Assembly (NCBI GenBank): GCA_037974965.1
Contig: JBBPFI010000006.1
Span: 186,001 to 250,000 of the forward strand
Source of the DNA: Dacryopinax spathularia
Lineage: Eukaryota; Basidiomycota; Dacrymycetes; Dacrymycetales; Dacrymycetaceae
Direction: 5' to 3'
DNA length: 64,000 nucleotides
Shown: positions 24,512-44,902 of the stretch, piece after piece
Layout of the letters: every line of letters begins with the position of its first letter
Numbering within the stretch: position 1 is the first letter of the stretch
Translations under genes and position numbers: made by a program
Notes under the pieces: generated by a model
Told to the model about the DNA's origin: nothing
Databases searched by the model: none
Seen by the model: only the letters and a program-made list of their open reading frames with translations

Positions 24512-25714
24512 ATGTCCGCCGCAGGCTCCGGCTCACTCGCCTCCCGCCTCCCAGCGATCAGCGGCGGGATCCCCACCTCGTCCGACTTTGCCCCCTCGAT
24601 CCTCTTCACCGTCCTCTACGCCCTCCTCATCCCCCTCCTCTTCTACCGCGCAATCCAATACGCCCGCCCCCTCTCGCTCGTCTTCTCCACCGTCCGGCTC
24701 TCCCTGTTTACAGGGATAAGAATAGCGACATTCATCATCCGCGCTGTGGAGGCTCACCAAGCCGCGAACGGGTTGGAGAGCCCGGAGATTGGACCTTTTG
24801 TGGCGGAACAGGTGTTTTTGGGGATTGGGTTTATAGTGCTTGCGACGACGCTTGTGAGCCTTGTGGTGGCGCATTTGAAGAGGGACGATGTGCCGAGGAC
24901 GCAGGAACAGATGGGGCTGCCGCAGCAGATGGGGCTGGTCGAACGGGTCATGCAGGTCGGGTTGCTTGTAGCGGTGTACGTCCTCTCCGTCTCTTCGTCC
25001 CTTCCCTCTCACTCTCCTCGTCTGCTGTCTCTTCCCTCTCTCTTTCCCCTCTCTTCCCTCTCTCTCCCTCCCTCTCCCGCTTCTCTCCCTCCCTCTCCCG
25101 CTCTCTCCCTTCTCCACCCCTCTCTCCCTCTTCTCTGCCTTCCCGTATCCCCTGACTGACAACCCCCCAGCATCCTAGGAATAATAGCCGGAACGCAATA
25201 CAGCTCCGCCCTCACCTCCCCCCCCACAGCCAGCCAAACAAAGACCGAACGTCTCGCCTCATCCGCCCTAACCCTAGCCGCAATGGCCCTCGCCTCGCTC
25301 CTCTCCCTCTACCTATTCATCTCCCACCCTCAGCTCCCTCGTCGTTCTTCCCTCTACCTCGCCTTGACGGCCCTGTTGACGCTGGTTATTCCCGCGTATA
25401 GGATCTCGACGCTTACGGGGAGTAATGCGTCCCCGACACTGGCGGACTTGGTTAGTACGAAGACGAAGGTCGAGTTCTGGATCTTGCAGGTAGCGCTGGA
25501 GTGGGTGGTGTTGGGGTTGTTGTTGGGGGTGGATATGAGGGTTTGGTTTGGAGCGGGGGGGGAGGAGGCGAGGCGCCATATGGGGGGGAAGGGGCAGGGT
25601 GCGGCGTATGGGAATGGGGGAGGGAATATGGGACAGATGGAAATGGCTGGGAGGGGAAGGGAGGGAGAGGGACAGCAGTGGGTGGGACCTGCTCCTGCTC
25701 AGGGTGAGCAATGA
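24512..25714 (+). CDS. Predicted 7-TM fungal protein (DUF7702-like), copy 1
   Basis: Function unknown. Exons 24512-24975 and 25171-25714 give 335 aa. Seven hydrophobic segments are visible, with the paralogue-conserved motifs PAISGGIPT-x-DFAPSI near the N-terminus, RIATFIIRAVEAH, AEQVFLGIGFIVLA, and near the end VIPAYRIST followed by LQVALEWVVLGLLLGVDMRVWF. The C-tail is Gly-rich and probably cytosolic. The single intron is in phase 2 after ..LLVAV, the same place as in the two paralogues at 29096-30132 and 34098-35139. I assign DUF7702 from memory of the family pattern, not from a search. Confidence 0.8.
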
Positions 25715-27316
25715 TAGCGCGGAAGGTTGGACGAGGAAAGCCGGTGGGAGAGAAGGCGGATGGAAGGATGAACGGATCGGCGCGCGGGTTGGATCTTGAT
25801 CGCGTTTTTTGGAGGGATGTGTGTTTATAGACCTTCCGACGCTCCGTCCTGTAGCTATATATAATTTGCTCTTTTCCGCTTGGCCTGATGCGTGCCACCC
25901 ATCCCTGTCCCTCGAGTTTTGTCCCCGAAAACGACGTTCACACAGAAGTCAAATACAGTACCCCAATCAGCACATGCTCTGCTCGGACTCTCTGCAACCC
26001 AGCCCAGGTTCAGGCAGAGACTCAGAGTGTGGACCCCAGCGGTCGTATGAGCCGCCACGGGCTCCTTCGGCTCGTGGCCGGTACGCGTGGGATCGAGCTC
26101 GAGCTCTCACAAGGGGTTAGTGCCACATCGTCCGGAGGGGCAGCGATCTTCTGCCAGTGGGCCCAAGTGCTGACTTGTTTGCCGGTCACCGCTTCTGCAG
26201 CTCTTTGTGCAGTCCCGGGGCACGTCGACTGCTCTAGAGGTACTGTATGTGATAACGAATCTAGCTGGCGTGCCCCTCAGTTCCGCTGATAGATCTTGGC
26301 GAACACCATTTCTCTTCGCTATGAATCTTCAAGTACCTAATGCGACAGATAACGAGGGAATGTGTGCTACTGTATGACGACGCGCCTGCCCGAGTAGAAA
26401 GAAGCTGACTTCATTGATGATGCGCCGACTCGCGAGCGGTCACTTGTCAGTCTAGGCCATAACTTCCATAAGTTGTCGCTGCTCCAAGCGATCAGTGGGA
26501 GTACGAGCGGCGAGAAGCGTTTGTGTGGCGCCAAGTCCTGTACGCCTAACTTATGCGAGCGGTACCAAATAAAGGCAGGTAAAAAGCAGGTGAGAATCCA
26601 GCCAATCTGGAAGGGCCCGATCTGGGCCAGATTCGTGATCAACGACGAGCGGAGGCACCTGAAAGCGGTGCTGTGCTGACGGGGAGCCACCGCTTCGGGA
26701 AGCGTCCGATTCTGAGAGAGTGCCGGGTCGAAAATAGGCGCATGAGGAAAAGAAGGAGGGAGGCAGGAGGCAGAAGCGGAAGAAGCCAAAATTATGACGC
26801 GCCGTCGACGTCTTGTTTCCAACTCCTCTCCTCGCCATTTCCAGACTCACCAGAGACCGCCTTCTCGCCTCCTCGCCTGCTCACCCACTGCAACATGCCG
26901 CAAACCTGTAGCGTCAGACAAAACTTGTCGCTTACCTATTTTCTTCTCTCGCCTCTTTCTATCGGATTCCGCCATCTGGATAAGAGTCGGATGACCAGTC
27001 ACCAGTCTGGGCCTCCACGCCCCCACAACATCGGAATCTCGTCATCATCCTTTGCGTCATGAACTTCGACCAACGCGTAAGACTGATAGAATGGCTGGGG
27101 TAAAGAAGGCAAATCCTGCGTTCAGAGTCGGTTTCGGAAGCCGGCAATGCGTCATCGGCAAGTATGATGTTGGTCGTCTTCCCTCGCTTTGGACATGAGG
27201 AATTCCATATAAGCCTCGCCTAGCTCGAGCAAGACGAACTAGCAACGTCTCTCGCCTTGCCCTTCTCGCCTCGCCTCACCTCACCCTCAGCAAATCGCCC
27301 TACCAAGAAAGCAGCA
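25715..27316. other. Intergenic region, promoter of opsin-related gene 2
   Basis: 1.6 kb. A TATA-like TATAAG at 27208-27213 lies about 105 bp before the next start. No coding exon was recognised. Confidence 0.45.
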
Positions 27317-28400
27317 ATGGTGCGCGGAAACGGCGCTCTCCTGACCAATCCGCCCAACAGCGGGATCGACATCAACACGCACGGCTCCGACTGGCTCTGG
27401 GCAGTCTTCGCCGTCTTCCTCCTCACCGACCTTCTCGTGGTCGCATGGACGCTCACGCGCGCGCGCGGGCATCGTGCGTTCCATATTATCGCTATTGCGA
27501 TTCTTACCGTTGGGACTATTGCCTATTTCTCTATGGCGTCTGATCTTGGCTCTACTCCTGTGATGGCGGAGTTCTATGGCCGCCATCATCAGAACTATGC
27601 TGGTGTTCCTGCAACCCGTGCCATCTGGGTGAGCTACAACTCCGTTCACAAGTGATTGTCAGAAACTGACTCGCAAACAAGTGGGTGCGCTACATAATGT
27701 GGACGATCTGTGCCCCGCTCCTGGTGCTCGACGTCCTGCTCGCCTCCGCCCTCCCAGTGTCCGACATCTTCGGCGCGATGTTCATGATCGTCGTTGCTGT
27801 CGTCTGCGGCCTAGTGGGCGCACTTACCGCCACCTCCTACAAATGGGGCTTCTACGCATTCGGAATCGCCGCTATCGTCTATGTCGTCTATGTCCTGCTT
27901 GGGCCTGGACGGACGTCGTCTGGGTACTATCACGGCCGTGACGTGGGCACAATCCACACTCGTGGTGGTGCGTCTCTTCCCATCCTCCTCCGCCTCCCCC
28001 TTCCTAACCTTTTTCCCCCTTTCCTACAGCGGCCTACCTCTCATTCTTCTGGCTCCTCCTGTACCCCATCTCCTGGGGTCTCTCAGAGGGCGGAAACGTA
28101 ATAACCTCCAACAGCGAAATGGTCTTCTACGGCATCCTCGACATCCTCACCATGCCTCTCTGGCTCCTCCTCCACTTGTTCCAGCTGAGGACGATCGACC
28201 ATACCAGGTTTGGGATGACGGGGAGCGGGATTGGAGGTGTGCACCAGCCGTACGTGGGCGGCGGGGGGGAGAAGGGCGCGCTGGGGTCGGGGGCGCCGGC
28301 ACCGGGTAACGCTGTGAATGCTGGCAATGCGGGTTATGCGGGGAATGATGCCGCGTACAATACCGCCGGAGCCGGCAGGCCCGTTGCGCCTCTTGCCTAA
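27317..28400 (+). CDS. Opsin-related protein 2 (HSP30/YRO2-type), lacks retinal lysine
   Basis: Paralogue of the gene at 19687-20684. Exons 27317-27628, 27682-27967 and 28030-28400 give 322 aa. Exon 1 is 312 nt in both genes, and the DINT(H/N)GSDWLWAVFA, MASDLG-x-TPV and SDIFGAMFMI blocks are shared. Helix C reads RYIMWTICAPLLVLD: the D85 position is Met110 and the D96 position is Asp121. Helix G has ILDILTMP, so Asp237 is kept and Met241 replaces the retinal Lys. The C-tail is longer than in copy 1, with an Asn/Ala/Gly-rich stretch (NAVNAGNAGYAGNDA). Likely plasma-membrane stress protein, not a retinal pump. Confidence 0.92.
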
Positions 28401-29095
28401 GCGTCTCGCCCTAATCCCCACCCAACTGCACTCTTCAAACCGACCAACCAACCAACCTCCTCACCACTGGGACCCAGCACACGTCATGGGCCGATACACG
28501 TCGCCTGATGCCCTCGCACGCCTTACGATCCGCAGTTATAATAGCAGCCCATCTTGAGGCTGCCAATCCCCTTTCTTTATGCTTGCAAATGCCTTGTAGC
28601 CGTAGCGCAGTAGTATATAGACGACGAACAGAGATGCCTTTTTATATCTTACATCCTGCGTGAGCCTGGATTTGAAGACTCAGGAGTGCGCTTCGCCTAA
28701 GTGTGCCAGAAATCTGTTGAGTGAGTTACTTCGTGTGGAAGTCTGAAGCAAGGAAATGTTTTTCAGACGAACCCGACGAATTGGAGCGATAAGGGACAAC
28801 GGCTGAGTATTTTGCAAACTGAAGAAGATGCATAGTACTCTTTTGCTCGCGCTGATGAAACATCAATTGCGGGCCTGTTCGACGAACGAGATGACCCAGA
28901 AGATATTCATAGATATCGATAACGTAACTTACGCGCCAAGCCCAAGTCTACAAGTACATCCAATATTGGCTTGGCAGGGTCTTTGCCGATGCGGAAAGGC
29001 CAGCCCAAAGCGTTGACCAGCCACCTGACCGGGGTCCGTTCTATACCAGCCCTGCGCGCAACCAGAGAGAAACGAAAGAGGGAGACACGACCGGG
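28401..29095. other. Convergent 3' intergenic region
   Basis: 695 bp between convergent stops of opsin-related gene 2 and DUF7702-like copy 2. Nothing was recognised beyond the 3' UTRs. Confidence 0.5.
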
Positions 29096-30132
29096 CTAGA
29101 CATAGGTGCCCTCGTTCTTTGCCCCGAGGGCGAGTTGCTCGCCGTTCCCTGCATATGGCGGCGGGTAGGCTTGCACAGGTGCAGCGCGAGCGCCGGTACC
29201 GAGCATCATCTGAGCCCTCTCGCCACCAGCGAAGAACCAGACCCTCGTGTCGACCAGCACGAGCGCAACGGAGACGAGCCACTCCATCGCCCCCTGCAGC
29301 ACGTAGAACTTGACCTGCGTGCTCGTACTGATCAGCGCGGAGAGGCTCGGGTCGGCCGTGACGCTCGACAAGCGGTAAGCGGGGATGATGACGAGGATAC
29401 AGCTGACGGCGAGGAGGTAGAGCGTGCGGAGGATGCCGATGTGCGGGTGGGTGACGAGCAGGAGGAGGGAGACGAGGATCAGAAGGCCGCAGACTGCGAG
29501 ACAGAGCGCGACGGAGACGACGCGCAGGGTTTGGACTTGGGAGGCGGTCGAGGCGTTATTGATCGCGCCTGAGTATTGGGCGGCAGCGGCGATACCAAGA
29601 GCACTAGTTTGAACGTCAGTATCTGATAAAGCTTCAAGCGGTCGATCACAACGCACACTGCGACGATCAGAGCCAGATGCATGATCCTGACAATCCGCTC
29701 CAAGCTGAACCTGCCCTCCGGCAGCGCCCAACGCGTCTCAGCTGCAGGTGGCACATCCGTCCTCCAAATATGGCTCTTGAGGAGCTCGATCATCAGATCG
29801 GCCAATACGATGAACCCGATCCCGAGCAGCACCTGCTCGGCGATGAACACGCTCAGATTTGGTACAGGGTTGTTCGGCAGGCTCGCGTTGTGTGCCTCGC
29901 TCGCTCGGAGACCGAAGGTCGCTATACGCATCGCGACGAATAGGGTGAGCCGGATGAACGTCCACATAAGCCGGGCTGGGTGACGGTAGGTGTATGTCCG
30001 CCAGATGCATACGGGCAAGAGAAGGCCATAGACGACGCAGAAGACGATCGCAGGCGCAAAGTCCGGATGAGTGGGGATACCGCCGCTGATGCTGGGTAGA
30101 GAGCCATAGGAGCTTGAACCGCTTGACGACAT
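29096..30132 (-). CDS. Predicted 7-TM fungal protein (DUF7702-like), copy 2
   Basis: Second paralogue, 327 aa from exons 29657-30132 and 29096-29603. Starts MSSSGSSSYGSLPSISGGIP; conserved blocks are HPDFAPAIVFCVVYGLLLP, YRHPARLMWTFIRLTLFVAM, RIATFGLRASEAH, IAEQVLLGIGFIVLADLMIE, VIIPAYRLSSVTADPSLSAL and LQGAMEWLVSVALVLVDTRV. The tail is short and ends NEGTYV. The intron is phase 2 at the same place as in copy 1. An ATAAAAG-type TATA element lies at 30318-30324 (minus), about 190 bp upstream of the start. Membrane location is predicted; the role is unknown. Confidence 0.8.
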
Positions 30133-30803
30133 GCTTGGTTCAATCGTAGTCGATGGTCGTGTGGACGCTTCTAGTCGATGTGGTCGTCCGCGACAGAGTC
30201 AGGAGACGGGCTGAGATATGGTATGGCAGGAATATGCCTCAGATGGCTGTTTTAGGGGTTGTTGAAGGGCTTGTACGAGATATGCAGTCTGACCAGCCAT
30301 CTCGACCGTTCCAGGGGCTTTTATCCCGCCTCTCGACCTGCCCATTGCCCGCAAACGACGAGGACAATATCACCGCGAGACACGGATGAACCTCATGGTG
30401 AAAGCTCGCAGTGATCCTGTCTCATGGGAAGTTTTCTCTATACAAGAGCCAAGAGTCTAACTGAGCTGTCAGGCTAGTCAAGCAGGCCGAGATCCAGGGC
30501 AGAGAGCAGGAGACAAGAAAGAGTTTCGCTGTCATATGCAACCCAAGTTCCTCTTGCGGGCGGCGGTGCAGTGGCTGAAGTGTCTCAGGGTTCTAGGGGT
30601 CCTTGTCTTTCCGCTTCCGCATCAACATCTACAAACGGGTACGGAGCTTGAGCCGTCGACGTCATGTGCACCGGTCGCGTCTTGCGCCGACCATTATTGT
30701 CAAAAAATTGACACTATAACCTGCATCGCTTCACTAGTCTCACATCCCTGAATAGCGTCATTGTAAAGACCATTGCTGACGTCGGTAGGCAGAGCCTGCG
30801 TGG
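30133..30803. other. Intergenic region, no gene recognised
   Basis: 671 bp between divergent starts of DUF7702-like copy 2 and Cys-rich gene F1. Apart from the TATA-like element at 30318-30324, nothing was recognised. Confidence 0.45.
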
Positions 30804-31097
30804 ATGTGTCGACTGGTGTACTGGAAGCCATGCGAAAACTGCGGCAGCGCCGTGAAGGCCTGTTATCTGCATGTCAGGCGTTGCCCCTTCTTCGAAGAGT
30901 TTAACAGAATGGCAGGAGATGAGGAGCGAGACTCTTGGGGAAGTCGATGGGGGAGGGCCTGCTATCGATCGCAAAGGAGAATTTGGAGATGTATGGAGTG
31001 CCCGGCACCACCGATCTATTGCTTCTTGTGCAAGCCGGTTGTGCTGCCCGAGCATGGTCCCCGTCGACGTCGCACATGGGTACAGCTCGTTGTATAG
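30804..31097 (+). CDS. Small cysteine-rich protein F1 (novel family)
   Basis: 97-aa protein of a family I do not recognise, with five members in this window. Begins MCRLVYWKPCENCG. The first module is C-x2-C-x6-C-x2-H-x3-C-x-F-F (CENC ... CYLHVRRCPFF); the second is C-x9-C-x2-C-x6-C-x2-C, slightly wider than the C-x9-C-x-C-x4-C-x2-C of the others. The nine Cys plus His pattern suggests zinc binding, but no catalytic motif is visible. The C-terminus is Arg-rich. No signal peptide, so probably intracellular. An AG at 30792 (taggcag)  lies 12-13 nt before the ATG, so the intron-to-ATG distance differs from the other copies. This is the most divergent copy. Confidence 0.6.
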   Translation: MCRLVYWKPCENCGSAVKACYLHVRRCPFFEEFNRMAGDEERDSWGSRWGRACYRSQRRIWRCMECPAPPIYCFLCKPVVLPEHGPRRRRTWVQLVV

Positions 31098-31737
31098 TCG
31101 AGTGAGTACTTCTATTTACTTGATTGAGGAGACTTCTGGCTGTACTGATCTTTCGCTCGTTGAGCCATGTCGAAGACGACTGGCCTGCTACAGCATGCTC
31201 GCTTCCACCCTTCGTGCTTGCGTTCTCCGGTGCCGGTGTATCTTCATGCGTCCATTCCTTGTTATCCTCCCCTATGGAGTCCTCCCTGTCAGGAGTTGCT
31301 CGCTCTATCGTGTGAATACGTCTCCACCGATCTGCTGTATTGACATATTTCTGCAACCCCCATCCACATAATCGCCACTGGATCAGGCTGCCTTCTCCTA
31401 TACATGATTCCCTACTAATACCCGCCTTGCTCGCTGCTACTTCCGAACCCTGTTGATAGTCTAAGGTGAGCTTCTCTGATTATCGCACTTGCAGACTGGC
31501 TGACCCGTGGTTTGTGGCAGACATGCCAAATTTTCGGGGTGCGTTGTGCTTGACGACGCACCTTGTCACAATCCCAGGAGCACAGATATATGCGCCCCAG
31601 CTTTCGTCTAGCGACAGCATACCCTGTTCTCCAACGTCCACGACCTGTAACTACACCGTGAGTTTCCTCCCCTCTTCCATTCTCTCTTCACCCAGCACAT
31701 TTCCTGCTGTGAGCCGCATACTCATGATTTAAGGCAG
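31098..31737. other. Upstream and 5' leader region of Cys-rich gene F2
   Basis: 640 bp. A 5' intron seems to end GTTTGTGGCAG at 31520, and a second intron (31658-31737, GTGAGT...GGCAG) ends directly at the ATG of F2. The same arrangement occurs before F3. Nothing else was recognised. Confidence 0.5.
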
Positions 31738-32033
31738 ATGTGCTCACTCGAACCTGCGAAAAATGCGACTACTGCGGGATGATCTTCCGCCACTGCAATC
31801 GCCATGCAGTCGAGCACTGCTCCTACTACTACCTCTTCCAGAAGATGGCAGAAAAAAACGACAAAGTCAGCAAGGCTTGGGCGAAGAAGAAGCAGGAATG
31901 CCTCGCACAGCAGTCGCACTGGAAGGAATGCACTTGCCAGGAAGAGCTCTGCGACGAGTGTAGTACCAGCTTTGAGGTTCTCGAAGCATACCGTGAGGAG
32001 AAGCGCGAGGCTCGTCGTCGTCGTCAGCAGTAA
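31738..32033 (+). CDS. Small cysteine-rich protein F2 (start or frame unresolved)
   Basis: Member of the Cys-rich family. The conserved frame runs from 31740 (LTRTCEKCDYCG) to the stop at 32033. Modules: C-x2-C-x6-C-x2-H-x4-C-x-Y-Y (CDYC ... CNRHAVEHCSYY) and C-x9-C-x-C-x4-C-x2-C (CLAQQ ... CTCQEELCDEC), then a Lys/Arg-rich tail ending RRRRQQ. The ATG at 31738, which sits exactly after an intron as in F3, is in the wrong frame: compared with F3 one base is missing just after ATGTGCT. Either this copy is frameshifted near its start, or translation begins in an upstream exon (for example at ATG 31523). The rest of the frame is intact, which argues for use or a recent loss. Confidence 0.5.
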
Positions 32034-32556
32034 ATCTCCTCCCCGACAACCGGTACGTTAACATGGTACCCATGATCCAGCCCTTCGCTGAACTCTCTGA
32101 TTTAGGCCTCAACGACACAAAACCTCAGCACTGCTCGAACCCGATCTCTTCTCTCCACTTAGTTACGTCCTCGTTCCATCGATCCCACATATTTTTTTCG
32201 CATAATACGAGTTATTCCATTCTCAAGTTCCTATGCATAAGCTCCGAACATTTGCTTATTCCTCAACGGCGAGCGGGACTTGCTCAAGATTGAATCGAGG
32301 TGAGTGGATACAAGCGGGTTGTCGTAACTCTGCTGATTGTGGTTTGTGGCAGATTCAAGAGAAATCTCTAAGGTGGTCTCTGACGCTGAACGACCACCAC
32401 TGTCGCCACAAACCATGCTTAGATACGCTCTGTTCCATATAAGCGCCATTCCCCGATCACAATGGAGCAGGAAGACGTCCTCTTCAAGCCTACCCGATCC
32501 AGGACACCGTAAGCTCTCCCGAACTGGCGTCGGAAGCGAACTAATAGGTATCGCAG
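32034..32556. other. Upstream and 5' leader region of Cys-rich gene F3
   Basis: 523 bp. Contains GTGAGT ... GTTTGTGGCAG (to 32351), matching the leader of F2, and a 48-nt intron at 32509-32556 (GTAAGC...ATCGCAG) that ends at the F3 ATG. An ATG at 32462 would open a different, non-conserved frame. Confidence 0.5.
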
Positions 32557-32850
32557 ATGTGCTTCACCTTCGCCACCATCAAATGCGACTACTGCCGTCT
32601 CCCCTTCGGCACCTGCCACCGTCATAGCGTCACCCACTGCCAGTACTACTACCAATACCGACGAATGGCGCGAACGTCGGATCCGGTAGACGAAGCCTGG
32701 GCGCAGATGCAGCAGACTTGTATCGTGCAGCAACAGATTGGGAAAGAGTGTACTTGCCCGCCGAGTCTCTGTAGGGCATGCGAGTCGAGGGTTCGCGGGA
32801 ATCCAAGGGCGTATGAGGAGTATCTCCTCCGGTCGGGCCGGCGCCGTTAG
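32557..32850 (+). CDS. Small cysteine-rich protein F3 (novel family)
   Basis: 97 aa, the best-preserved member. Begins MCFTFATIKCDYC. Modules: C-x2-C-x6-C-x2-H-x4-C-x-Y-Y (CDYCRLPFGTCHRHSVTHCQ) and C-x9-C-x-C-x4-C-x2-C (CIVQQ ... CTCPPSLCRAC), with an invariant Trp (EAW) and QQ between them. Basic C-terminus. No secretion signal or membrane helix. A 48-nt intron with a CTAAT branch-like site ends directly before the ATG, so the start codon is created in context by splicing of the 5' UTR. F3 and F2 are tandem copies in the same orientation. Function unknown; zinc binding is inferred from the Cys/His spacing. Confidence 0.7.
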   Translation: MCFTFATIKCDYCRLPFGTCHRHSVTHCQYYYQYRRMARTSDPVDEAWAQMQQTCIVQQQIGKECTCPPSLCRACESRVRGNPRAYEEYLLRSGRRR

Positions 32851-34097
32851 TTGGCTGGATGTGCGAGCAGATGTACCGTATGTGAAATCGCGCTCCGTTT
32901 GTTTCGGAGTTGAAGCTGATACTGGAGCTGTAGAGCCCGAAATCCGGTCGCTGAACCGGGATTTAACCTACCCACCAAGCCTGCCAACCTTTGCTTTATC
33001 GTAAACGTCGCTGTCGTCCGTTCTATTTTACAGGCCATCCATAATCTATAAACTCCTTTCGACCACGCAAGATCGATCGAACCGAGGCTCCGAGCAAAAG
33101 AGACCACCAACATGCGTGCTATGGCAGGGTCTTCCCACCATCGGCCGATCTCGGAACATCTCTGCCTAACTTCTTACCCTAGTTACCAACCCTTAAGATG
33201 TCTTCACGGGTAACCATCCTCTCTCACTTCTCTTGCTCTTCTTTAGTAGGAGCTAGCGACGTCCTCCCGAAGCCCCAGCGACGGAGCCACGAGTAAGTAA
33301 GGAGCATCGACATCACCGGCATCACCGGCTGTAGGCAGTACCGGTTGTCGCAGCTCAGGCCCCTTTCCCTTTCCCGCTTTGACTATCGGTAGATTGCTCG
33401 CTCCCCAGCACCTCGGCAGGTCAAAGCCGAATGATCGGTCAGCGGTGGGGTTTGCGGTACTTGATGCGGCCAGAGCGGCTGTCTCACCTTGCTTTGATCT
33501 TTTCACAGCAGCAGAATGCTTTGACTGATGGCGTTTAGAGAGGATAGAGAGTTAGCGCTTAGACGGAGAAAGGAGTTCGGCACTAGTGAGAACTGAGGTG
33601 CGGACAAGCATCAACCAACGCGCATATATTACACTCTTTTCGTCGTGAAACGTTGCATTGGAGGCTGACAGACAGTGATATCTCGTCAAATGAAAAGAGA
33701 AGAAAGGAACAACAAGAAAACGGAAAGATAAAAGAGAAAAGGAAGGAAAGAGGACGTTCTGCATCATGCGCGGGATATAGACAGACATGATTGATGGCTC
33801 GCACGAAGTGTAGGGACTCGGTTGGAACTTGGATATCGTCATCGGTCACGGGAAATTGTACGGTCTTCCGGGTAAGGGGTACTGTACTGGGACGGAAAGG
33901 GAAGGGAAGGATCGACGTCGTTCTATTCAGCGCCGGGACGCTGGGGAGATCGGGAAAATCTGTCCAGTCCACTTGATCTGCTCTGCTCCGCTCTGCTGGC
34001 TCTGCTCCTAACTCCTCCGCGCATCGTGTGCCTGTCCAATGCTGTACTGCTCTCTCGGACCATGGCGTACCGCACATACAGGCCCATCAACGACAGC
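32851..34097. other. Intergenic region, no gene recognised
   Basis: 1.25 kb between convergent genes F3 and DUF7702-like copy 3. An 87-codon minus-strand frame at 33243-33506 has no family features and is not called. Confidence 0.4.
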
Positions 34098-35139
34098 TTA
34101 GGCGTAGTTCCGCCCGTACTGTTGCTGGCCGTACTGCGGTCCGTACTGCGGGCCATAGGCGCCCTGAGGCGGGGCCATAGGGTACTGGTTCTGGTCGGGA
34201 GGCGGGCGGTACTTGCCCAGCGCCATCTGGGCCTCCTCGCCCCCGGCAAAGAACCAGACCCGGACGTCGACGAGGATGAGCGCGGTCGCGACGAGGAACT
34301 CCATGAGACCTTGGAGGATGTAGAACTTCAGTCGGGTGCTGTCGCTCACCAGGTCTGCGAGGGAGTTGGCGGGCTCGAGGGTTGACCAGAGACGGTAGGC
34401 CGGGACGACGGCCATGATCACTGCTGTTACTGCGAGGTAGAAGGAGCGGCCGGCGCCGAGTGAGGGGTTGTTGACGATGAGCAGGAGGGAGATCACGAGG
34501 CAGAGGACGGAGACGGAGAGTGTGATGATCGTCGATGCGAGACGCATGGTCTTGACTTGGCTTGCGATAGACGAGCTGTTCATCGCTTGGCCGTACTTGG
34601 TACCTGCGCTAATACCGAGGACGCTAAGGGAGAGTCAGCCACGCGGTTCTGAGTCATAACAGGCAAATATATGCGTACATGGCGATAACCAACGCGATGT
34701 GCATGAGGCGGACGATTGTCTGGAGCATGCTTCCCTTTTCGCCTTTGCCTGCAAAGTGCGTCGGGTTTGGCACGTCCGAGCGGAAGATATGGGCCTTGAT
34801 AAGCTCGAGCAGGAGATCGACGAGGACGATGAAGCCGATCCCGAGCAGGATCTGCTCAGCGATGAAGATGTTCATGTCTGGTACCGGGTTGAGGAGCGTC
34901 GCCGTTGCACCTTCTTCTGCCCGCAGACCGAAGGTTGCGATACGGACGAGGACGAAGAGACAGAGACGGAGGTAGGTGAGGAGGAGCTTGCCCGGATGGC
35001 GGTAGGTGAACGTCCGCCATACTGTTGGTAGGAGGAGGACGCAGTAAGCTGCGCAGAACACGATGGATGGTGTCTCGTCCTGCTTGACGGGGAGACCACC
35101 TGAGAGGGCAGGGAACGCTGTTACGTTGAGTGCGGACAT
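34098..35139 (-). CDS. Predicted 7-TM fungal protein (DUF7702-like), copy 3
   Basis: Third paralogue, 328 aa from exons 34679-35139 and 34098-34623. Starts MSALNVTAFPALSGGLPV; conserved blocks are TPSIVFCAAYCVLLLPTVW, YRHPGKLLLTYLRLCLFVLV, RIATFGLRAEEG, IAEQILLGIGFIVLVDLLLE, VVPAYRLWSTLEPANSL and LQGLMEFLVATALILVDVRV. The C-tail is Tyr/Gln/Pro-rich with repeated (A/P)YGPQYGPQYGQQQYG. The intron is at the same phase-2 position as in copies 1 and 2, and its donor is GTACGCATATA. Closest to copy 2 by eye. Confidence 0.82.
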
Positions 35140-38082
35140 TGTTGCCGCTGAGGTTGGAGGGAGGAGGGAAGGTTATCGATCGAGGGCCTTTAAGGTTGTG
35201 GTCGATGTGTTGAATGACCAGATAGGGGTCGACCAAGGTGAGGGAGGAAGGTGAGATAGCTAGCGATAGGCGTGCGGGTTGGGGGGGAATAAAACTGTGC
35301 AAGTAGAAGAGCGTTGATGGGATGGGCGGACGATGAGCGTATTTATGCCAGCACCACGTCACGGCGCCTTCATCGGCATGGCCTTCGCACCACCGTGCGT
35401 GCCGGGAAAGGAGGGGAGGCGAAAGGTGATACCTCATCACAGCGATTCTCCACCCTTCGCGAAGTCATCCTCAGCTCCCACCAAAACCGAGTGCATACAC
35501 ACACGCACACTCCATCGCCGCCCACCGCCGTTCAAGCTCGCAACGAGCAAACTACAATAGGGTCTCACAGCCTTTCAGCGCCCGATCTGGCTTCCCTCGG
35601 GCATTAACTCGCGACTTCGGCAACTCGGACCCTGGCTTCCTCGGCCCCCTCCCAGCCAATCAGAGCGAGGCTCGGAGGTTACTTCGGCGCTTAACGAGCG
35701 TTGTCGGTACGGATTAGGCCATACGTTGGACAGGCGGTGCGAGGCGTCCTGTCTTTGGATATGGGTCTGTCTCTCACTCGCGCGGTTGTACGACCAAAGA
35801 AGCTGGACGGCCGTACGAGGGTACGACTGCGCAGAGACAAGAGCACAAATCCGGGTGGCGGATTTGGACGCTGGGCGAGCACAGAGTTTATTAACCCCAA
35901 CCCACCCTTTGCAGTCGTACGGCCGACGACCAACGACCGTCAGGTGCGTTCCAATCCCTCATCTTTCTGCGCAACTACGCCGCTCTGTGCTACCCGGGGT
36001 TCGCTAAAAATAGAAATACGGCTACTCCACTCGTACTGCATTCACCACCGCCTCCATTAGAGCTGACAGCGACGACAATACGCGCAGCCTAACCCGGCGC
36101 ATGCAACATGTCTTATCCTCTGTTCACCTTCACCCCTCCCCGCGGCAATCATCCAGCGAAAATCAACGCCCCATCCTACTCCCGACACCTGATAATCCCC
36201 TAACGTACAACAACGCGTCCCCAAACCGTCCAAGCAGCTGTCAAAACACGTTCGGCACAAGTATGTAACTTGCCGGCAACTAGATACAGCTTCTTATCTC
36301 CGCCTCCGGCATATCTCCTGCCAACTGGCGTCGATGCGTCATACCTCCGCTCAACAGCTGTCAACCCCTCCGTCAGCGGCGCAAACAACCGCAAGGGTCC
36401 CTAGCGCCACACCCATAAACCACGCAGATCTTGCGGTTAATCGCAAATCTGGCTATACGCATCCGGAGATTCTGCGCTTCCGGCGAGGAGCCTTTCTCTT
36501 CGCACCGCAGGCGATACGACTGAGCTCTATCGACTTCCTTTGCTTCTATTAATGACCTTCGCGCATCCTTACAGTACATCCAACGAGCTCCTTCCAGCAA
36601 ACCAGACGAAAACTTCCACCAAAGATAAAAAAATCCATTAATCACCCCACCTCAGCTCACCCCACTTCCCCTATCCGTACACGACCATAGCAGGTCCCCT
36701 AGTATTACGTCGGTATGACGCACCCCTTTACCCTAACTTTAACATCTGCAGTACAGTAAATCCGCCCCGCATTCCCTTTTCCACACAAGGAGGCGATGTG
36801 TAAGGGTAGGGTAGGCTCGCGCGGAATTCATCGATTTGCTCATAAGCAGCGTACGTTCCTGGCGCGTGTCACGCACGTGTCCCTTCCCCTAGTGGGGGAG
36901 AGAGCGGGCAACAGGTATTGCAGCCGGTTTCCCGCGCCGTACGTGCTGAACGCCCAAGCTCGAGCTCGAGACCTCCACCTCTCCCCCCTATACACATCCC
37001 AGCCAAACCATCCGAAACCCGTCTGACAGGCTCTCGGCGCCTTCCAGCGCGCGAGCGGTGGGAAATCTTATCGCTGCCTGAAGCTGATCCTTCCTCATTA
37101 TCGGCGCGCTCGAATCCTCGATGTCTTGCGAAGCTGTTGCGCTGGGGATTGTCGGGTTTGGACACTGCCGCTTCCGTCCGAGCTTCCGATCTGGATCATC
37201 ACATGTTAGATCAGGTGAAGATACGGATCGAGCGCGGGGGCGACGCGCCCGGGGAGTTGGCGGGCGGATGTTGTTGTTCGACGGTCGTGAGCGGGGAGAG
37301 AGGGAGACTGTTGGACTGTTGGTTGGTTGGTTGGTTGGTTGGTTGGTTGGTTGGTTGGTTGGTTGGTCGGAGGTTATGGGTCGGAGGGCGCTCTATGCCG
37401 GGCGTCCTGCGTCCGTGTTCCGCTGGCTGTTGTGCTGGGGATTGCTTCGCGTTGAGGACTGTATCTGATAATCGACTGCTAGGGTAGTGGAACATCAGGG
37501 CACGGGCCGACGGTAACCCACCACGTACGGAACGTGCACTTGGCTGGCATGCTGATGGAGTTTGAAAGCATGCTGGACTGCTTTCCCCAGCCCTTGACGT
37601 CTGTCTACAGGCCGACACCGTCCATTCCAAAGGCGAGAGGCAGCCATGTAACTTTGTTCTTCCGATACCAGACGAAAATGGTGCCGAATGGTCGGAGGCG
37701 ACACTGTCTTCCCTCCTCGTCGGACGCGGCACTATTGATAAATACATAAATATATTCGACATACATATCTTGGGATGCTACAATACATAATGGCAAGATA
37801 CTCTACATGGAACGGTCAATCTCCGGCCGACATTTGGACAATACAATAAATAGGCCCGATATGGGCGATGTCTAGTGTAATAAATAACGTTAGACCGATG
37901 ATAGCTTGCTTGGGACCATAAATAGATCGGGAATGAGGAGGCAAACGAGTGGAAGGTATTTCGTTGTATGCTTCTTTCAGTTGTATGGGGAAACCTGGAT
38001 TGACAATGAACATTTCGACAAGCAGAAAGGAGTGCTAATCGCGTACGTGACTCGGTTCATTCATACGTACAAAGGAACTCCC
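35140..38082. other. Large intergenic region with GTTG microsatellite
   Basis: 2.9 kb, the longest gene-poor stretch in the window. It has short open frames on both strands but none with recognisable domains or consistent splice partners. A GTTG tandem repeat lies at 37318-37366. No transposon-like terminal repeats were noticed. Confidence 0.45.
37318..37366 (+). repeat. (GTTG)n microsatellite, about 12 units
   Basis: Uninterrupted tetranucleotide GTTG/GGTT tract in the 35-38 kb gene-poor region. It would read as a repeating LVGW peptide in one frame, which is why a spurious open frame covers it. Confidence 0.95.
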
Positions 38083-38328
38083 TCAAGCGCTCGCCCCTGA
38101 CTCGTTCTTGCAGAACGAGCACAGCACACGCGGACAGGTACAAGGCTCCCAGCCCATCTGCTGGCGGATACAGTTCTCCCGTGCCTTCGTCCACGTGCCC
38201 TCGGCTTCTTTCGTCGGTGCCGGCTTCTGGAACTCGTCAAAGTAGGCGCATTTGCCCGTGTGCAGGTAGCACAGTGCAACCACGTCGCCGCATCGCTCGC
38301 ACAACTTTGACGTCACGGTGTAGCACAT
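38083..38328 (-). CDS. Small cysteine-rich protein F4 (novel family)
   Basis: 81 aa. Begins MCYTVTSKLCERCG. Modules: C-x2-C-x6-C-x2-H-x3-C-x-Y-F (CERCGDVVALCYLHTGKCAYF) abbreviated here as CERC ... CYLH ... CAYF, and C-x9-C-x-C-x4-C-x2-C (CIRQQ ... CTCPRVLCSFC), with the invariant Trp (GTW). A short Ser/Ala tail replaces the basic tail of F2 and F3. A 51-nt intron (38329-38379, donor GTAAGT, TTAAC branch-like site, acceptor GTGAAG) ends exactly at the ATG, as in F3 and F5. Opposite strand to F1-F3. Confidence 0.68.
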   Translation of the reverse strand: MCYTVTSKLCERCGDVVALCYLHTGKCAYFDEFQKPAPTKEAEGTWTKARENCIRQQMGWEPCTCPRVLCSFCKNESGASA

Positions 38329-39174
38329 CTTCACCAGAGGTTAAGAGCTGGACTTGAAGACTAGCAGGTGAGAACTTACGAGGTCAGGTTGATAAGTGGT
38401 CGGGAAGGAGAAAGAGGACGAATGCGGCGACCGGGATGCTGGCGGCTGGACTACATATAGGAATTAGGAATTAGGAATTAGGAAGACTGTGGCAAACGGG
38501 CCTGTCGCCACAGATGATCTAGCCCCGAAATTTCTCCTGCGCACGCCACAGTTCCTCGTCCCACTTTTTGTTCTTCCTTGCGGACCTGCCGGAACCTAGA
38601 GACTAGTGTCGTTTGCCGCACGCCGGGCGGTGCGGAACAAGAAAATGCGCAGTAGCGCGGTTCGGGTATCGTCTAGACCGAGGCGACATCGTCCCTGCGG
38701 TTAGAGACGGAGGTGATGTTTTTTTTTTCGCGGGAATACGGTTATATGGTAACGGCCGCTCGGGTGGTTTCTTCGGCATCGTGGACGATGATTAGATAGG
38801 GATGTGGCAAAGGGGCCGAATAAGGTGGGTGGCGAGGTGGTGATGGGTGGTTTCGGTGCTATGTAGGATGTACTGGTGTTGGCAGTGGCTTTCGTTCGAC
38901 ATCGCATAGCTCCTACAACCAAGTAAGACCACGACATCGACAGAAAAACAGAAACCGCATACCGCTTTCCTTGGGAAGCAACGGGCTGGCCTCTCCTGTA
39001 CCTGTACTCAATATCCTCATCCGACCGCGCAGGATCAGCCAACATCGCTTCGCCGCATCGTCCACAAACCATTATTTGAAGAGTGTCGGCTTGAACGATC
39101 TCGACAATTCACCGACGAATCATGCTTAGAGGCGGAACGAGTCCGTCCGACGAGGGAAGATGATAGGTGATTCA
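38329..39174. other. Upstream region of F4 and 3' side of unknown gene
   Basis: Contains the F4 5' UTR intron, three tandem GAATTAG heptamers at 38461-38481, and a weak minus-strand frame from 39072 starting MVCGRCGEAM. That frame has one CxxC but not the rest of the Cys-rich pattern, so it is not called as a family member. Confidence 0.4.
38461..38481 (+). repeat. Three tandem GAATTAG heptamers
   Basis: Exact 7-bp unit repeated three times in the F4 upstream region. Confidence 0.85.
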
Positions 39175-40068
39175 TCAAAATGCCGCTATTTGCTGCACGA
39201 CGGCGGCACCATGGAACATATCGGTACCAAGCGCAGTCATAGCATGCAGAGGAAGACGGCGAGCGAGAGTAGATAATCCATTGCGGCTTGGAGAAGAACG
39301 AGCAGGATTCCCGTGCAGACGCGTGGTCACCGCCGTCAACAGGGGCAAGGCACCCGGCTCAGTATTGGAGGCTCCTAGCATCGGCGTCCCTAGCGCATAT
39401 ATGCGCGTGCTAGTAGACTGGTCCATTGGTATTGCATAGTATACTTCAAAAACCAGGTGTCCTAAGCTCCAATTCGGGTACAGTACGCTGGAGGGTGAAG
39501 CCGTGCGATTCATCAGCAAATAGCAGGTTGTCCCAGTCGTGGCGTCGAAGAGTCGTTCCAAGCAGCCCAGATTGAGCGGTATCTCCATCTTTACGAAGAT
39601 GGGGAGATCGTCTGTTGGAAGATGAAGCTTGGGGATTGCAGTAGACGGCCAGAGCAAGACGTGAGCTCGGTGATGGTGCCGGACCATTTGGTACCGCCAT
39701 ATGATCTATGCGACGAAATGCAGCCAGTAGCGGAGAAAGCAAGACGAAGCAGTCCATTCGTATTGTCGCCGCGGTCCCGTAAAGTTACATGAAGTGGAAA
39801 GACGAGCTCGAAACTGTCGAGCTGAGTTAGTTGTAGTAGGACTGTTTGGTTCAAGATGCTGTTGGGAGGACATCAAATCCCGATCGATCGCTCGGCTTCC
39901 GGAGCCGAAGCACTGCCACTATCGGCTTCTTTGCCACCTTGCCGCCCAAATACAGCTCTTCATCCTTCTCGTCCACAAGCCGCAGAGCGACTCGCTGCTT
40001 GTACCATCCACTTCCTTGGGCAAGGTATCGTCTTTGTGCGTGTGTATGGATGCCAGCATCACGTCCAT
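39175..40068 (-). CDS. Hypothetical protein, three-exon model, no recognised family
   Basis: I do not recognise this gene. Exons 39938-40068, 39695-39858 and 39175-39611 join in consistent phases (2, then 1) through GT-AG introns of 79 and 83 nt to give 243 aa. Visible segments: MDVMLASIHTHKDD at the start, then ILNQTVLLQLTQLDSFELVF, PLHVTLRDRGDN, DDLPIFVKMEIPLNLGCLER and LLMNRTASPSSVLYPNW. No transmembrane helix or signal peptide is obvious. Intron 1 could instead be read through in another frame, so the 5' half is uncertain. It is divergent from the F-box-like gene, with 331 bp between starts. Confidence 0.4.
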
Positions 40069-40399
40069 TGATATGCTGCGCGGTGCTGATCGCCACATCG
40101 GCGCTCCTTGCTGACGAGAAGGCTCGCAACAAGTGGCGTAACGCCCGCTACTCTAATTGGCTCGACCTCGTGCGCTGGCACCCTGCCTCCGGGAATCTTG
40201 CTTTGTTGAGACACGAGGCACCGGGCGGTGGTTCCTAGGAGCTGCCAGCTCGTTCCGACTCGCCTCCACTCACCTTGAACTCTCTGCTCTTGACCACGAC
40301 CTTGTCTAACCACCGTCTCGACGATTCGATTGCAAGAAGAACTCAGAATACTCTTACTTGGCTGGAGTCGGGTAGGTGTCCTCGTCAGACGTCGCTAAC
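40069..40399. promoter_or_regulatory. Divergent upstream region (hypothetical gene / F-box-like gene)
   Basis: 331 bp between divergent starts. No specific site was recognised. Confidence 0.4.
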
Positions 40400-42025
40400 A
40401 TGGAGCGCGCCTTGAAGATACCCGAAATCGTGTCGATGATCGTGGATCATGTCGCCGCCTTCCGCGATATAAACCACACACGCAGGCGCGTGGACGAGAG
40501 GGCAAAGCCGGCAATATCCTGCTTGGCCAAACTTGCTCGTTGCGGACGTATATGGTGGTTGCCCTGCATAAGAGCTCTGTACCACGACGTCAACAACCTC
40601 CGCTTCCATATGTTGCTTCGTGTTATCGATTTCAGGTGGAAGTCGGACAAGGTTTGGCGTGATTCGTGCAGATGAACCCCAGGCAGCTGAGCAAAACTGT
40701 AGATACCCAAACGACTTCCGCGATCATCCGCTATCTGGGAGAGGTTCCTTGAGCATACTCGCCACGTTCGGCTCATGGTAGTTTCTATCAGCCCGGTAGA
40801 GGTCTCGTCGGATCCGGCATGGTACTGCAGCGCGCTAGCATTCAAGAGACTTGCTGTACTGCGCGAAAGGTTCACACCTACGAGAGAGATATTTCCGCAA
40901 CTGAGAAACATTCGACTGGTTCTCAGCGATAACGACGCCATGAAGGCAACACGTCTCCTTTTGCAGCCGCAACTCAGGTGGATTACGTGTACAGTTATGC
41001 AGGGACCGGTACCGGGACTTCCCCAGTTCCTGGAAGCTGTATCCGAGTTCGCCCCTGACGTGCAAGACATAACATTCCAACCATATGATGCGGGAGCCGA
41101 CCTCAATGCCGTTATAGAGGAAGCCCACAAACTCCGCGCCCTTCGAGAGTTCAGTCTGGCCTATCCGGAGCACCCGCTCGAGTTTGTGCGGGCATTGTCC
41201 TCTCTCAGAGGTCTCCAAAAAACCCAATTAAATCTGGAAACGCCACGAGCGCGGGAGGATAAGGAGATCACCCTGTTGTTCCCCTCGCTGCGGCACCTAA
41301 CACTTGCGGGGCGTACTCATGCGCTGGTGGACTTCCTAGAATGCGCCAGTATGCCTTGTTTGGTGGACCTCATTCTTTACATACGGCCGCACAACGCCTC
41401 TGAATTCGACTTGCTACGAGATACAATATCCGAGAAGTTATGCGGCCTTCAGATGTACCTCTTGATCATCAGCGCTGAGAGACTGGCCGACGAAGATCCA
41501 TCCGATGTATTTTGGACGAAGCCGATCAGAGATTTCTTACCTTTTGGCGCTTGCCCGAACCTGGTGCGTTTGGAGGTACGAGACTACCGCGTCAGGCGGA
41601 ACATTGGTCCTCAAATTCGTTTGGGGCTGGATGACAGTACACTGGAACATATTTCTCGCAGCTGGACGAAGCTTCGAATGCTCGTCGTCGAGAATAAACG
41701 CTGGGCGGAGCAAGAGCAATTTCAGCCAGCGAGAATCTCGTTCCAAGCCATGGTACGCTTCCTCTATAGCTGTGTCGATATTCGGATAGCGACCTTGGCC
41801 ATCGAGACCGGCACGATTCCTTACGCGGAATTTGAGCCAGATGACGCCCCCTGGGCTTGGTTACATCTCTCAAGACAGTCACATGAGCAGGAGTCGAGCA
41901 CATTCGCGGTCACCATGGACGTCGATCGCCTTGGGATTTGGGAGCCCGCTGCGAAATTCTTGGCTTTCTCGCTAGTATGCTATTACATCAGATGGAGGTA
42001 TTCGTGGAGTCCGCTTGTATTATGA
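40400..42025 (+). CDS. F-box-like / LRR-type basidiomycete protein
   Basis: Exons 40400-40651 and 40703-42025 give 524 aa. The N-terminus MERALKIPEIVSMIVDHV ... CLAKLARCGRIWWLPCIRALYHD matches the F-box-like motif of the large basidiomycete F-box families, which bind Skp1 in SCF ubiquitin ligases. The remainder is a series of degenerate leucine-rich segments (FPQLRNIRLVLSDND, ALREFSLAYPEHPLEF, FPSLRHLTLAG, MPCLVDLILYI, CPNLVRLEVRDYR, WTKLRMLVVENKRW). The intron has a weak donor (GTTTGG) but is needed because a stop lies directly before the second exon's frame. The target protein cannot be predicted. Flanked by Cys-rich genes F4 and F5. Confidence 0.72.
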
Positions 42026-42151
42026 GCTTCGCTCATAACTGCTGAAAGATCGTAGGTAGCGAGATATCATCTTCAGTATCATGTCAATCCTTGCTCAATC
42101 GGGTATCGCGGATAACACGCACATTGGAGGAACCTGCCACAACTTAATCGC

Positions 42152-42418
42152 CTACGCCCCCATCATCTCTTGAGCAGCTCCATGCCGAGCACACGCCTCA
42201 CAAGTACCCGGGCCACAGTCACATGAGCTTCCATACCGTTCCTCACGGATACAACGGTCGTACAGAAGGCGCAAGCATTTGCGCACACCCGCTCGGTTCC
42301 CCTGGCTGGCTCGTTTACCCGTCTTTTCGAAGTACTTGCATTTACTCGCGTGGAGTGGGCATCGAATATTGCTCTCGTTACACTGACTGCAAGTTTGCAT
42401 ACCGAAGCTCGAGCACAT
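42152..42418 (-). CDS. Small cysteine-rich protein F5 (novel family)
   Basis: 88 aa. Begins MCSSFGMQTCSQCNES. Modules: C-x2-C-x6-C-x2-H-x3-C-x-Y-F (CSQC ... CPLHASKCKYF) and C-x9-C-x-C-x4-C-x2-C (CIREE ... CDCGPGTCEAC). The spacing is the same as F4 although most other residues differ, which marks these positions as structural. A 59-nt intron (42419-42477, donor GTTAGT, acceptor TTTCATAG) ends directly at the ATG. The invariant Trp of F1-F4 is absent here. Convergent with the F-box-like gene, 126 bp between stops. Function unknown. Confidence 0.66.
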   Translation of the reverse strand: MCSSFGMQTCSQCNESNIRCPLHASKCKYFEKTGKRASQGNRAGVRKCLRLLYDRCIREERYGSSCDCGPGTCEACARHGAAQEMMGA

Positions 42419-43651
42419 CTATGAAAGCAATCAGCACAGGCCTGCAAGACACCAGAGGGTGTGTGTATAGAACTAACCTCTGCCGATGTTGGAATAGTGA
42501 GTGGAATTCAATGGTAGGTTTGGGAATTCGCGCGATGAAGAACAAGGATACATTGAGAATTGCTTTTATTCCAGAAATACGGAGGCGACTGATGGCCTTC
42601 ATGCGGTGTTAAGTGGAAATAGGTCGGTGGAAAGAGCTCGTTCATCGCTGGAGGACAATCGGCGCTGCGAACAAGTGAGGCGGTCATGACGCATGGTCTG
42701 TCGCCCATCGGCAGGGCTCAGGCATTTAAAGACGACCCCAGAAATTCCGTATGCGGCGTTAGCAGAGATGAGCGAGGGAGAATAAATGTGGCTGGAGGCG
42801 TGCATTACGGGGTTTGTGTTGACGGAGTCCCATGCGTGAAGTCAATGCCACGTCGACCGTAAATCCATCCGTGAGGACCCCCCATACGCCTAGGTTACTT
42901 GCCCCACAACGGGCTTCGTAGTCGCTGAGGTTGCCCAGATACGGTCGTGCGACCGAGGAGCTTTTCCGCGGGTTGAGAGGGATGATGCGCCTCTACGCGC
43001 GACTAGGCCCGCATCAATGTCAATGTGCGCCAACCGACGTTAAAGACGCACAATCCCCTCACCTCTCCCCACGAACATACCTTCATATCCGTACATCTTC
43101 TGCTATATACCGAGGACAATCGTCCGTATATTCGAGCATCGGCGGCGGCGCCGCGAGAGGCATCAGTAGATGGACGGAAAAGGGATAACGGTCCCGAAGA
43201 TGCGGCGCTTGGCGCGTCCGGATCGCGGAGTCTGTCCGGACAAAGCCGTCCGCATGGTACATTCTGAGCCTCTTCTACTACAGATAGTCACGCTGCTCTA
43301 CCCTCAAGCAGATATAGCATAGCACGAGGAGGTTGTCCAGCCTCACGAAAAGACATAAGAACGAGAGATGGAACATGCATTCTCTCCCTCTTCAAAAGGG
43401 ATTCGACCTAGCCGCGCGACGGCCTGTCGCGCGGCTAGGTCGAATCCCTGCCTTCCCAACGTCCGCCTCTCTGATCGCCGCTCACCAGATCTCATGACCC
43501 CTCACAAAGCACCCCTCCACCCCACAGCCCCGCCAAATCCCATCAACCCCACGATCCAGCTCCGGCCGACCGCGCTCCTCAGCAGACAGTACGCACCATC
43601 GCCCCCCAACCACCCAACCAATCCAGGAACAAAGGCCGCCGTCGCCAGCTG
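42419..43651. other. Intergenic region with perfect 24-bp hairpin
   Basis: 1.2 kb, with the F5 5' UTR intron at its left end and a strong palindrome at 43395-43447. No other gene was recognised. Confidence 0.5.
43395..43447. repeat. Perfect inverted repeat: 24-bp arms, 5-nt loop
   Basis: The left arm 43395-43418 (agggattcgacctagccgcg...) is the exact reverse complement of the right arm 43424-43447, with loop ggcct. Its T-arm-like GGTCGAATCC looks tRNA-like, but no cloverleaf can be drawn. It lies about 200 bp beyond the ELP5 stop on the ELP5 3' side, so it could form a stem in the ELP5 3' UTR or act at the DNA level. Confidence 0.95.
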
Positions 43652-44902
43652 TCAGATATCCAAGTCCTCATCAGGATCATCGTCGTCCACATCATCCCCC
43701 GAGTCGGGCTCGTACAGTATCTCCCCCGTTTGTGTTGGGTTTTGGGGCGGGGAGTTCGTGTGTGCGTAGGGGAGGGGGACGGCCGCGCGGGCTTGGGATT
43801 GGGCGGGTGTGAGGGTGAGGTTGAAGGGGAGGTTGGAGGTTGGGTCGGCTGTGCTTGTCGGGGCGTTTGTCTGACGAAGGGTGAGCATATTATTGGAGGA
43901 GGTGGCGGGGGGGAAGGTCCTTACCTGAACCTGACCGGTGCGAGCGAACGCGTCGACCATCTCTTTCATCCCTGTCAGTTCTTCCCATGAACAAGCCCTC
44001 ACATCCCCCTCAACCTCCTTCCACGCCTCGAGCGTCCTCTCCACCCTACTCCGTTTCCTAACCCTGCACTCCACCAGCCCTTGCTCAATCCCGACCTTCC
44101 TAGCCCGTACGCCCTCGCCCCGCTCCGCAGCGCCCTCGAACAGCGCCCAGAATTTGCGCGAGTCGCCGTATGGCGGTGGAAGGGTCAGGAACTGACTGGA
44201 GAGGTGGGATAGGAGGGAGGGAGGATGGAGGAGGAGATGGGTCATGTCGGATGAGAGGGCTGTTGGGGGGAGGAGGATGTCGGCGAGGGGGGATGATGCT
44301 GTGAGAGGTATGAGGAGGCGGGAGGACGGGCGGGATGTTAGTGTTGAGTGGAGTGATTTGAGTAGGCGGTATGCTGTTGCGCTGGTTGTATCAGACACGT
44401 AGGTGTCCAAGCCGAGCACGGCGATGGTCGCTGGACCCGGAGGTACTGCAGCCGAGATTAATCACGCGGCAAATAGACGGAGGAGGGTCGTACGCACAAG
44501 TCTTAGCAGCAGCGAGCGCTTCTTCCGATACATCAACCTCCTCCTCGCCTCCCAGCTCATATCCCGGCACTCGCCCAGAATAGTCCAGTATCACCGACCG
44601 CCCCTGCCCCTTCCCATCCTGCAGCCCGCGGGCAAAGTAAGAGCGCGGAACGTCGAATGTCACGACCAGAACCGCATGCTTCCTCCAGCCCGTTGTCAGT
44701 ACGTTTCCATCGGGTGCATGAAGGGGCATGCATACGACGATAGCGATGCCTGAAGCAAGGCGTGAACGAGGGGAAGATGAGTGTTGTGTGCCGCTTGGAG
44801 GAGGACCACCTCGGGCTGAGGGGAGCGGGAGGTCGAGGGGATTGGGCCGAGGAGTGCGGCGAGGGGTGAGGAGGTGTCTGATGAGCGTTTGTACGACATC
44901 AT
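43652..44902 (-). CDS. ELP5: ELP5 / IKI1, Elongator subunit
   Basis: Subunit of the Elp4-Elp5-Elp6 RecA-like ring of Elongator, which modifies wobble uridines of tRNAs. Exons 44736-44902, 44498-44682, 43925-44445 and 43652-43870 give 363 aa. Seen: PEVVLLQAAHNTHLPLVHAL, then HAVLVVTFDVPRSYF (RecA-like beta strand and Elp5 P-S-x-Y/F), VILDYSGRVPGYE, and the C-terminal signature LPFNLTLTPAQSQARAAVPL leading to GEILYEPDSGDDVDDDDPDE and the ending DLDI. That NLTL-x-RAAVPLPY plus acidic DPDEDLDI ending is characteristic of ELP5. Assignment rests mainly on this C-terminal block. The alternative start at 44899 differs by one Met. Confidence 0.87.

Follow-up and report, generated by a model that had tools for sequence, protein, structure and literature searches.

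A locally duplicated family of small cysteine-rich proteins in Dacryopinax spathularia, probably intracellular and zinc-binding

Close C-x2-C and C-x-C pairs together with an invariant His are a common mark of metal (zinc) sites, and the described proteins that come nearest to the family treated here, the zinc knuckle and treble-clef proteins and the AN1 zinc finger, share parts of such an arrangement. Small families that are lineage-restricted and locally duplicated are common in fungi. Here we describe five open reading frames (ORFs), F1–F5, from the basidiomycete D. spathularia, which probably encode a family of this kind. They lie in a stretch of 64,000 nucleotides (nt) (contig JBBPFI010000006.1, positions 186,001 to 250,000 of the forward strand; C6:186001-250000), referred to as the window, and all positions without a contig label are those of the window. 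The assembly (GCA_037974965.1) comprises 29.2 Mb in 24 contigs. The five ORFs are:

F1, 30804-31097, + strand: 97 amino acids (aa), Met-Cys (MC) start, Arg-rich tail, wider second Cys module
F2 (Cys frame), 31740-32033, + strand: 97 codons, GTG start, no in-frame ATG
F3, 32557-32850, + strand: 97 aa, nearest relative F2 (43% identity)
F4, 38328-38083, - strand: 81 aa, no Cys or His beyond the conserved 10 Cys and 1 His
F5, 42418-42152, - strand: 88 aa, most divergent of the five, one extra Cys

All five ORFs of 81–97 aa given by the original prediction were found at their predicted positions, and the two Cys patterns claimed for them hold. The first module, C-x2-C-x6-C-x2-H-x3/4-C-x-[FY]-[FY], is matched exactly by all five proteins. 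The second, C-x9-C-x-C-x4-C-x2-C, is exact in F2–F5, while F1 is the predicted exception with wider spacings (x9, x2, x6, x2). An alignment of the five has ten invariant columns (8 Cys, 1 His and 1 Ala), and two further conserved Cys are shared by four of the five members. Cys2 is also fixed, giving MC-x7-C wherever the start is intact (F1, F3, F4, and F5), and aromatic residues are preserved beside Cys27/28. Each protein contains 10–11 Cys, or 10–13% of its residues.

The shared pattern is hardly expected by chance. The full-pattern expression found five sites in the window and a mean of 0.0 in 60 order-1 Markov copies of it, and a looser C-x2-C-x5-7-C-x2-H expression found five sites where the Markov copies averaged 0.42 and never exceeded 4; having been derived from the five proteins themselves, neither expression is a blind test, and the counts serve as a guide only. 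Shuffling of all residues except Cys and His, which kept their places, gave in 300 shuffles per pair no score as high as that of the real alignment in five of the ten pairs; in the remaining five, 1, 1, 2, 4, and 9 of the shuffles reached it. Since the real scores were reached by so few shuffles, residues besides Cys and His also carry homology. F1 and F2 each match F4 with expect values (E) of about 1e-9 to 1e-8, and F5 stands furthest apart, matching F4 at E 0.001. Judged from these alignments, the five ORFs are homologous beyond their Cys/His positions. Pairwise identity is 20–43%, with F2/F3 as the top pair, so that the earlier description of the other residues as strongly divergent is fair, although the homology extends past Cys and His.

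The family looks confined to about 12 kb. Six-frame protein searches of the whole assembly, with each of the five as query, gave no credible sixth member; these searches scored the best candidates only (3–7 per query) and might overlook copies that are strongly diverged or divided by introns. When 5555 six-frame ORFs from the window and its two 100-kb flanks were searched with a profile built from the five, these came back at E ≤ 8.2e-29. The next match, an ORF at E 0.0065, lacks the Cys pattern and was rejected. Weak genome matches on C1 (E 0.01), C7, C8 (two places), and C11 (E 0.1–0.5) were likewise rejected as members: a C-x2-C-x3-10-C-x2-[HC] string occurs at none of these five loci on either strand in six frames, and the match at C8:710996 is a repeat protein by eye. 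F1, F2, and F3 form one tandem on the + strand, three copies rather than the two first counted. Describing the members as dispersed among unrelated genes understates their clustering, as the assembly yielded no other copy. The best reading of these data is that the family arose by local duplication within the same 12 kb and is lineage-restricted.

Within the databases searched the family looks undescribed, as the original prediction had supposed in naming no family with this pattern; that claim survived searches of Pfam, NCBIfam, the PDB, and a protein database. No Pfam family matched any of the five at E ≤ 1, and at E ≤ 10 there was one match, DUF7563, to a single member (E 2.4). NCBIfam, with its bacterial and archaeal models, gave one match at E ≤ 10, the S27ae model to a single member (E 0.062), which is not credible. 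The PDB sequences gave no meaningful match. In the protein database F3 alone returned no candidate, and the 134 candidates for the five-row alignment all lay above E 1; this search requires shared 5-residue words and its fungal coverage is patchy (a neighboring gene found one relative), so orphan status is unproved. Titles and abstract openings in the literature showed nothing on such a family.

We consider it probable that F1–F5 are small intracellular proteins of a locally duplicated, lineage-restricted fungal family whose conserved Cys and His bind structural zinc. Three features underlie the reading: the set of candidate ligands, the close spacing within the C-x2-C and C-x-C pairs, and an N-terminus that is not strongly hydrophobic. 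Over residues 1–35 none of the five proteins showed a strongly hydrophobic stretch (best 10-residue Kyte–Doolittle mean 0.19–1.76), and the peak for F4 falls on the Cys20 region. Structural zinc would be held at most likely two sites per protein. In the N-terminal half the ligands would be Cys10, Cys13, Cys20, His23, and Cys27/28, and in the C-terminal half the five Cys of the second module. Binding to nucleic acid or to another protein is probable, through the charged middle and, in F1–F3, the Arg-rich tail. The pattern suggests metal binding, while expression, intracellular location, zinc as the metal, and partner binding are inferred.

The original prediction had a two-module zinc-binding fold kept by selection. 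A metal-binding fold kept by selection stands as the best reading, given that all Cys and His of F4 are conserved and that the third codon position changes most in all ten pairs (which are not independent); zinc and the division into two modules go further than this. A comparison of dN/dS among the copies had also been proposed, and the proportion of nonsynonymous differences (pN, 0.39–0.61) lies below that of synonymous ones (pS, 0.69–0.91) in each of the ten non-independent pairs, although saturated synonymous sites weaken the statistic. A codon-usage table was trained on ten open frames of the window that have Pfam support (3038 codons in all, taken stop to stop and including some intron letters), and by it the true frame came top of six in three of the five (F2, F3, and F4). 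Coding support is good for F2–F4 and weaker for F1 and F5.

Candidate introns in the 5′ untranslated region (5′-UTR), read from the sequence, precede four of the five ORFs, and a second one lies further upstream of F2 and of F3:

31658-31737, + strand: candidate 5′-UTR intron of F2, 80 nt, ends AG/ATG
32509-32556, + strand: candidate 5′-UTR intron of F3, 48 nt, ends AG/ATG
38329-38379, - strand: candidate 5′-UTR intron of F4, 51 nt, ends AG/ATG, branch-like site departs from the CTNAY consensus
42419-42477, - strand: candidate 5′-UTR intron of F5, 59 nt, ends AG/ATG
31466-31520, + strand: second candidate 5′-UTR intron of F2, GTGAGC...GTGGTTTGTGGCAG, 55 nt, 15-nt identity with the region upstream of F3
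32300-32352, + strand: second candidate 5′-UTR intron of F3, GTGAGT...GTGGTTTGTGGCAG, 53 nt, 14-mer found only twice in the window

Each candidate next to F2–F5 combines GTnAGy with a branch-like site and an AG that abuts the ATG. This arrangement is found at 6 of the 2010 ATGs of the window, four of them the starts of F2–F5, by a rule that was fitted to these same genes. A 5′-UTR intron shared by F2–F5 is a candidate feature of the family, and the second upstream candidate, ending in GTGGTTTGTGGCAG, is common to F2 and F3. F2 begins at GTG because its ATG, at 31738, is out of frame: this ATG TGC opens a different frame from that of the Cys pattern, one that stops after 14 codons. In the spliced Cys frame of F2 a stop lies four codons upstream of the GTG at 31740 and there is no ATG between. 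F2 might be a broken copy (pseudogene), an assembly error, or a gene with an alternative start.

Several points weigh against functional zinc-binding proteins. The saturation of synonymous sites makes the selection statistics weak, and in F2/F3 the differences at codon positions 1, 2, and 3 number 43, 37, and 51, a weak signal. By codon usage the true frame ranks fifth of six in F1 and third of six in F5. F2 is broken as read, although intact relatives (F1, F3, F4, and F5) exist, and F1 lacks the AG/ATG intron feature. The structure models are also too weak to identify a fold: in AlphaFold2 models built from the five alignment rows, F3 has a mean predicted local distance difference test score (pLDDT) of 64.6 and a predicted template modeling score (pTM) of 0.48, and F4 a mean pLDDT of 51.6 and a pTM of 0.31.

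Could the ORFs be decaying, functionless relics of an old duplication array, with perhaps one or two live members? The absence of an in-frame start in F2, the lack of codon-usage support for F1 and F5, and the identity of only 20–43% fit such a history. Decay would be likely to erode the pattern, however, and all five frames are open and keep all nine Cys/His columns despite saturated silent sites, which makes this explanation unlikely.

The small size, the 10–11 Cys of each protein, the strong divergence, and the local duplication would also suit secreted, disulfide-rich proteins of an antimicrobial or effector-like kind, held by cystine bridges instead of metal. We regard this as improbable. 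The N-terminus has no strongly hydrophobic stretch in the Kyte–Doolittle scan above, and the close Cys pairs and the invariant His are rather those of metal sites. In addition, the spliced upstream frame meets a stop 22 (F3), 28 (F4), or 10 (F5) codons back with no ATG in between, and therefore no in-frame upstream exon was found in F3–F5 that could supply a signal peptide. Iron–sulfur ([2Fe-2S]) or thiol/disulfide redox-active proteins are likewise improbable: the two-block C-x-C and C-x2-C sets recall the twin motifs of anamorsin/Dre2, but the spacing differs from those motifs, the His is invariant, and no Pfam or NCBIfam model of such families matched.

A bolder version of the metal-binding reading would include Cys2. 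Here the ten Cys and one His, with MC-x7-C as part of the set, would form a new small metal-binding fold, and the N-terminal Cys exposed after removal of Met would act as a redox- or oxygen-sensitive degron. If so, this family, while expanding locally, would tie the stability of its proteins to metal or redox state. The fixed Cys2, with an MC start in four of the five proteins, and the ATE1-type domain (PF04377) on C1 give slight support to a Cys/Arg N-degron. PCO/ADO (PF07847) was not found in the genome by a search that was silent in control genomes too. We hold this version to be a long shot and keep to intracellular proteins with structural zinc.

A neighboring gene also occurs in several copies. 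Three copies of a membrane-protein gene are interleaved with the F genes:

24515-24982, + strand: membrane-protein gene copy
29647-30129, - strand: membrane-protein gene copy
34657-35172, - strand: membrane-protein gene copy

These are the sole genome copies found at E ≤ 0.001, all inside the window. One relative was found, in Calocera cornea (66% identity), a single match that places the host probably among the Dacrymycetes (Basidiomycota); its source label reads RTA1-domain-containing, and a Pfam match to that relative was not obtained. As this gene is triplicated in the window too, the whole region looks like a hotspot of local duplication. Long direct repeats in 24000-44000 are parts of the paralogous genes. 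An odd stretch at 35650-36110 occurs once in the assembly and was rejected as a mobile element.

Other neighbors in the window are, by Pfam, ADA2-like, CCCH/RRM, FMO, FAD oxidoreductase, uS2, S8e, Elp5, AAA, G-alpha, and eIF3c genes. We take the CCCH/RRM gene to be U2AF small-subunit-like and the AAA gene WRNIP1-like. Between F4 and F5 there is a 440-codon open frame (40703-42022, + strand), F-box/leucine-rich-repeat-like by eye, with no Pfam match at E 0.01. The search for RNA families gave none reaching the gathering threshold. A 24-bp inverted repeat without mismatches, its loop 5 bases long, lies at 43397-43449, where ARAGORN (bacterial setting) and Rfam gave nothing. An array of a 4-base repeat (GTTG) spans 37310-37369, and a shorter complementary stretch is found at 28438-28466.

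The observation holds up and the family is apparently real, although the surprise is limited because families of its general kind are common in fungi. Provided that it is real, this protein family is undescribed, and its Cys/His pattern is unmatched by any family model searched. The size of the proteins suits quick structure work, and since the family was found at a single locus only, the gain, divergence, and breakage of members should be traceable in related Dacrymycetes.

Among known systems, metallothioneins do not fit: they have a very high Cys share and no core, whereas here Cys makes up only 10–13% and aromatics are kept beside Cys27/28. The second module, C-x9-C-x-C-x4-C-x2-[C/H], falls within the spacing of the middle of the AN1 zinc finger (PF01428), but the C-x2-C opening of AN1 and its closing His and Cys are absent. 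AN1 identity was rejected, as PF01428 matches none of the five members and the same model matches two genome sites, on C2 and C4. Zinc knuckle and treble-clef proteins are alike in the C-x2-C followed by C-x2-H. They also resemble the F3 model, a low-confidence one with no significant match in a fold search made with F3 only, in which strands (5-10 and 16-20) are followed by a short helix (21-24). A further lead comes from the small, Cys-rich hypothetical proteins with a Met-Cys start that are common in other fungi. The exact spacing was matched to no record of these, and the likeness lies in the Met-Cys start, a length below about 100 aa, paired Cys, a C-x2-C near the end, and no evident signal peptide.

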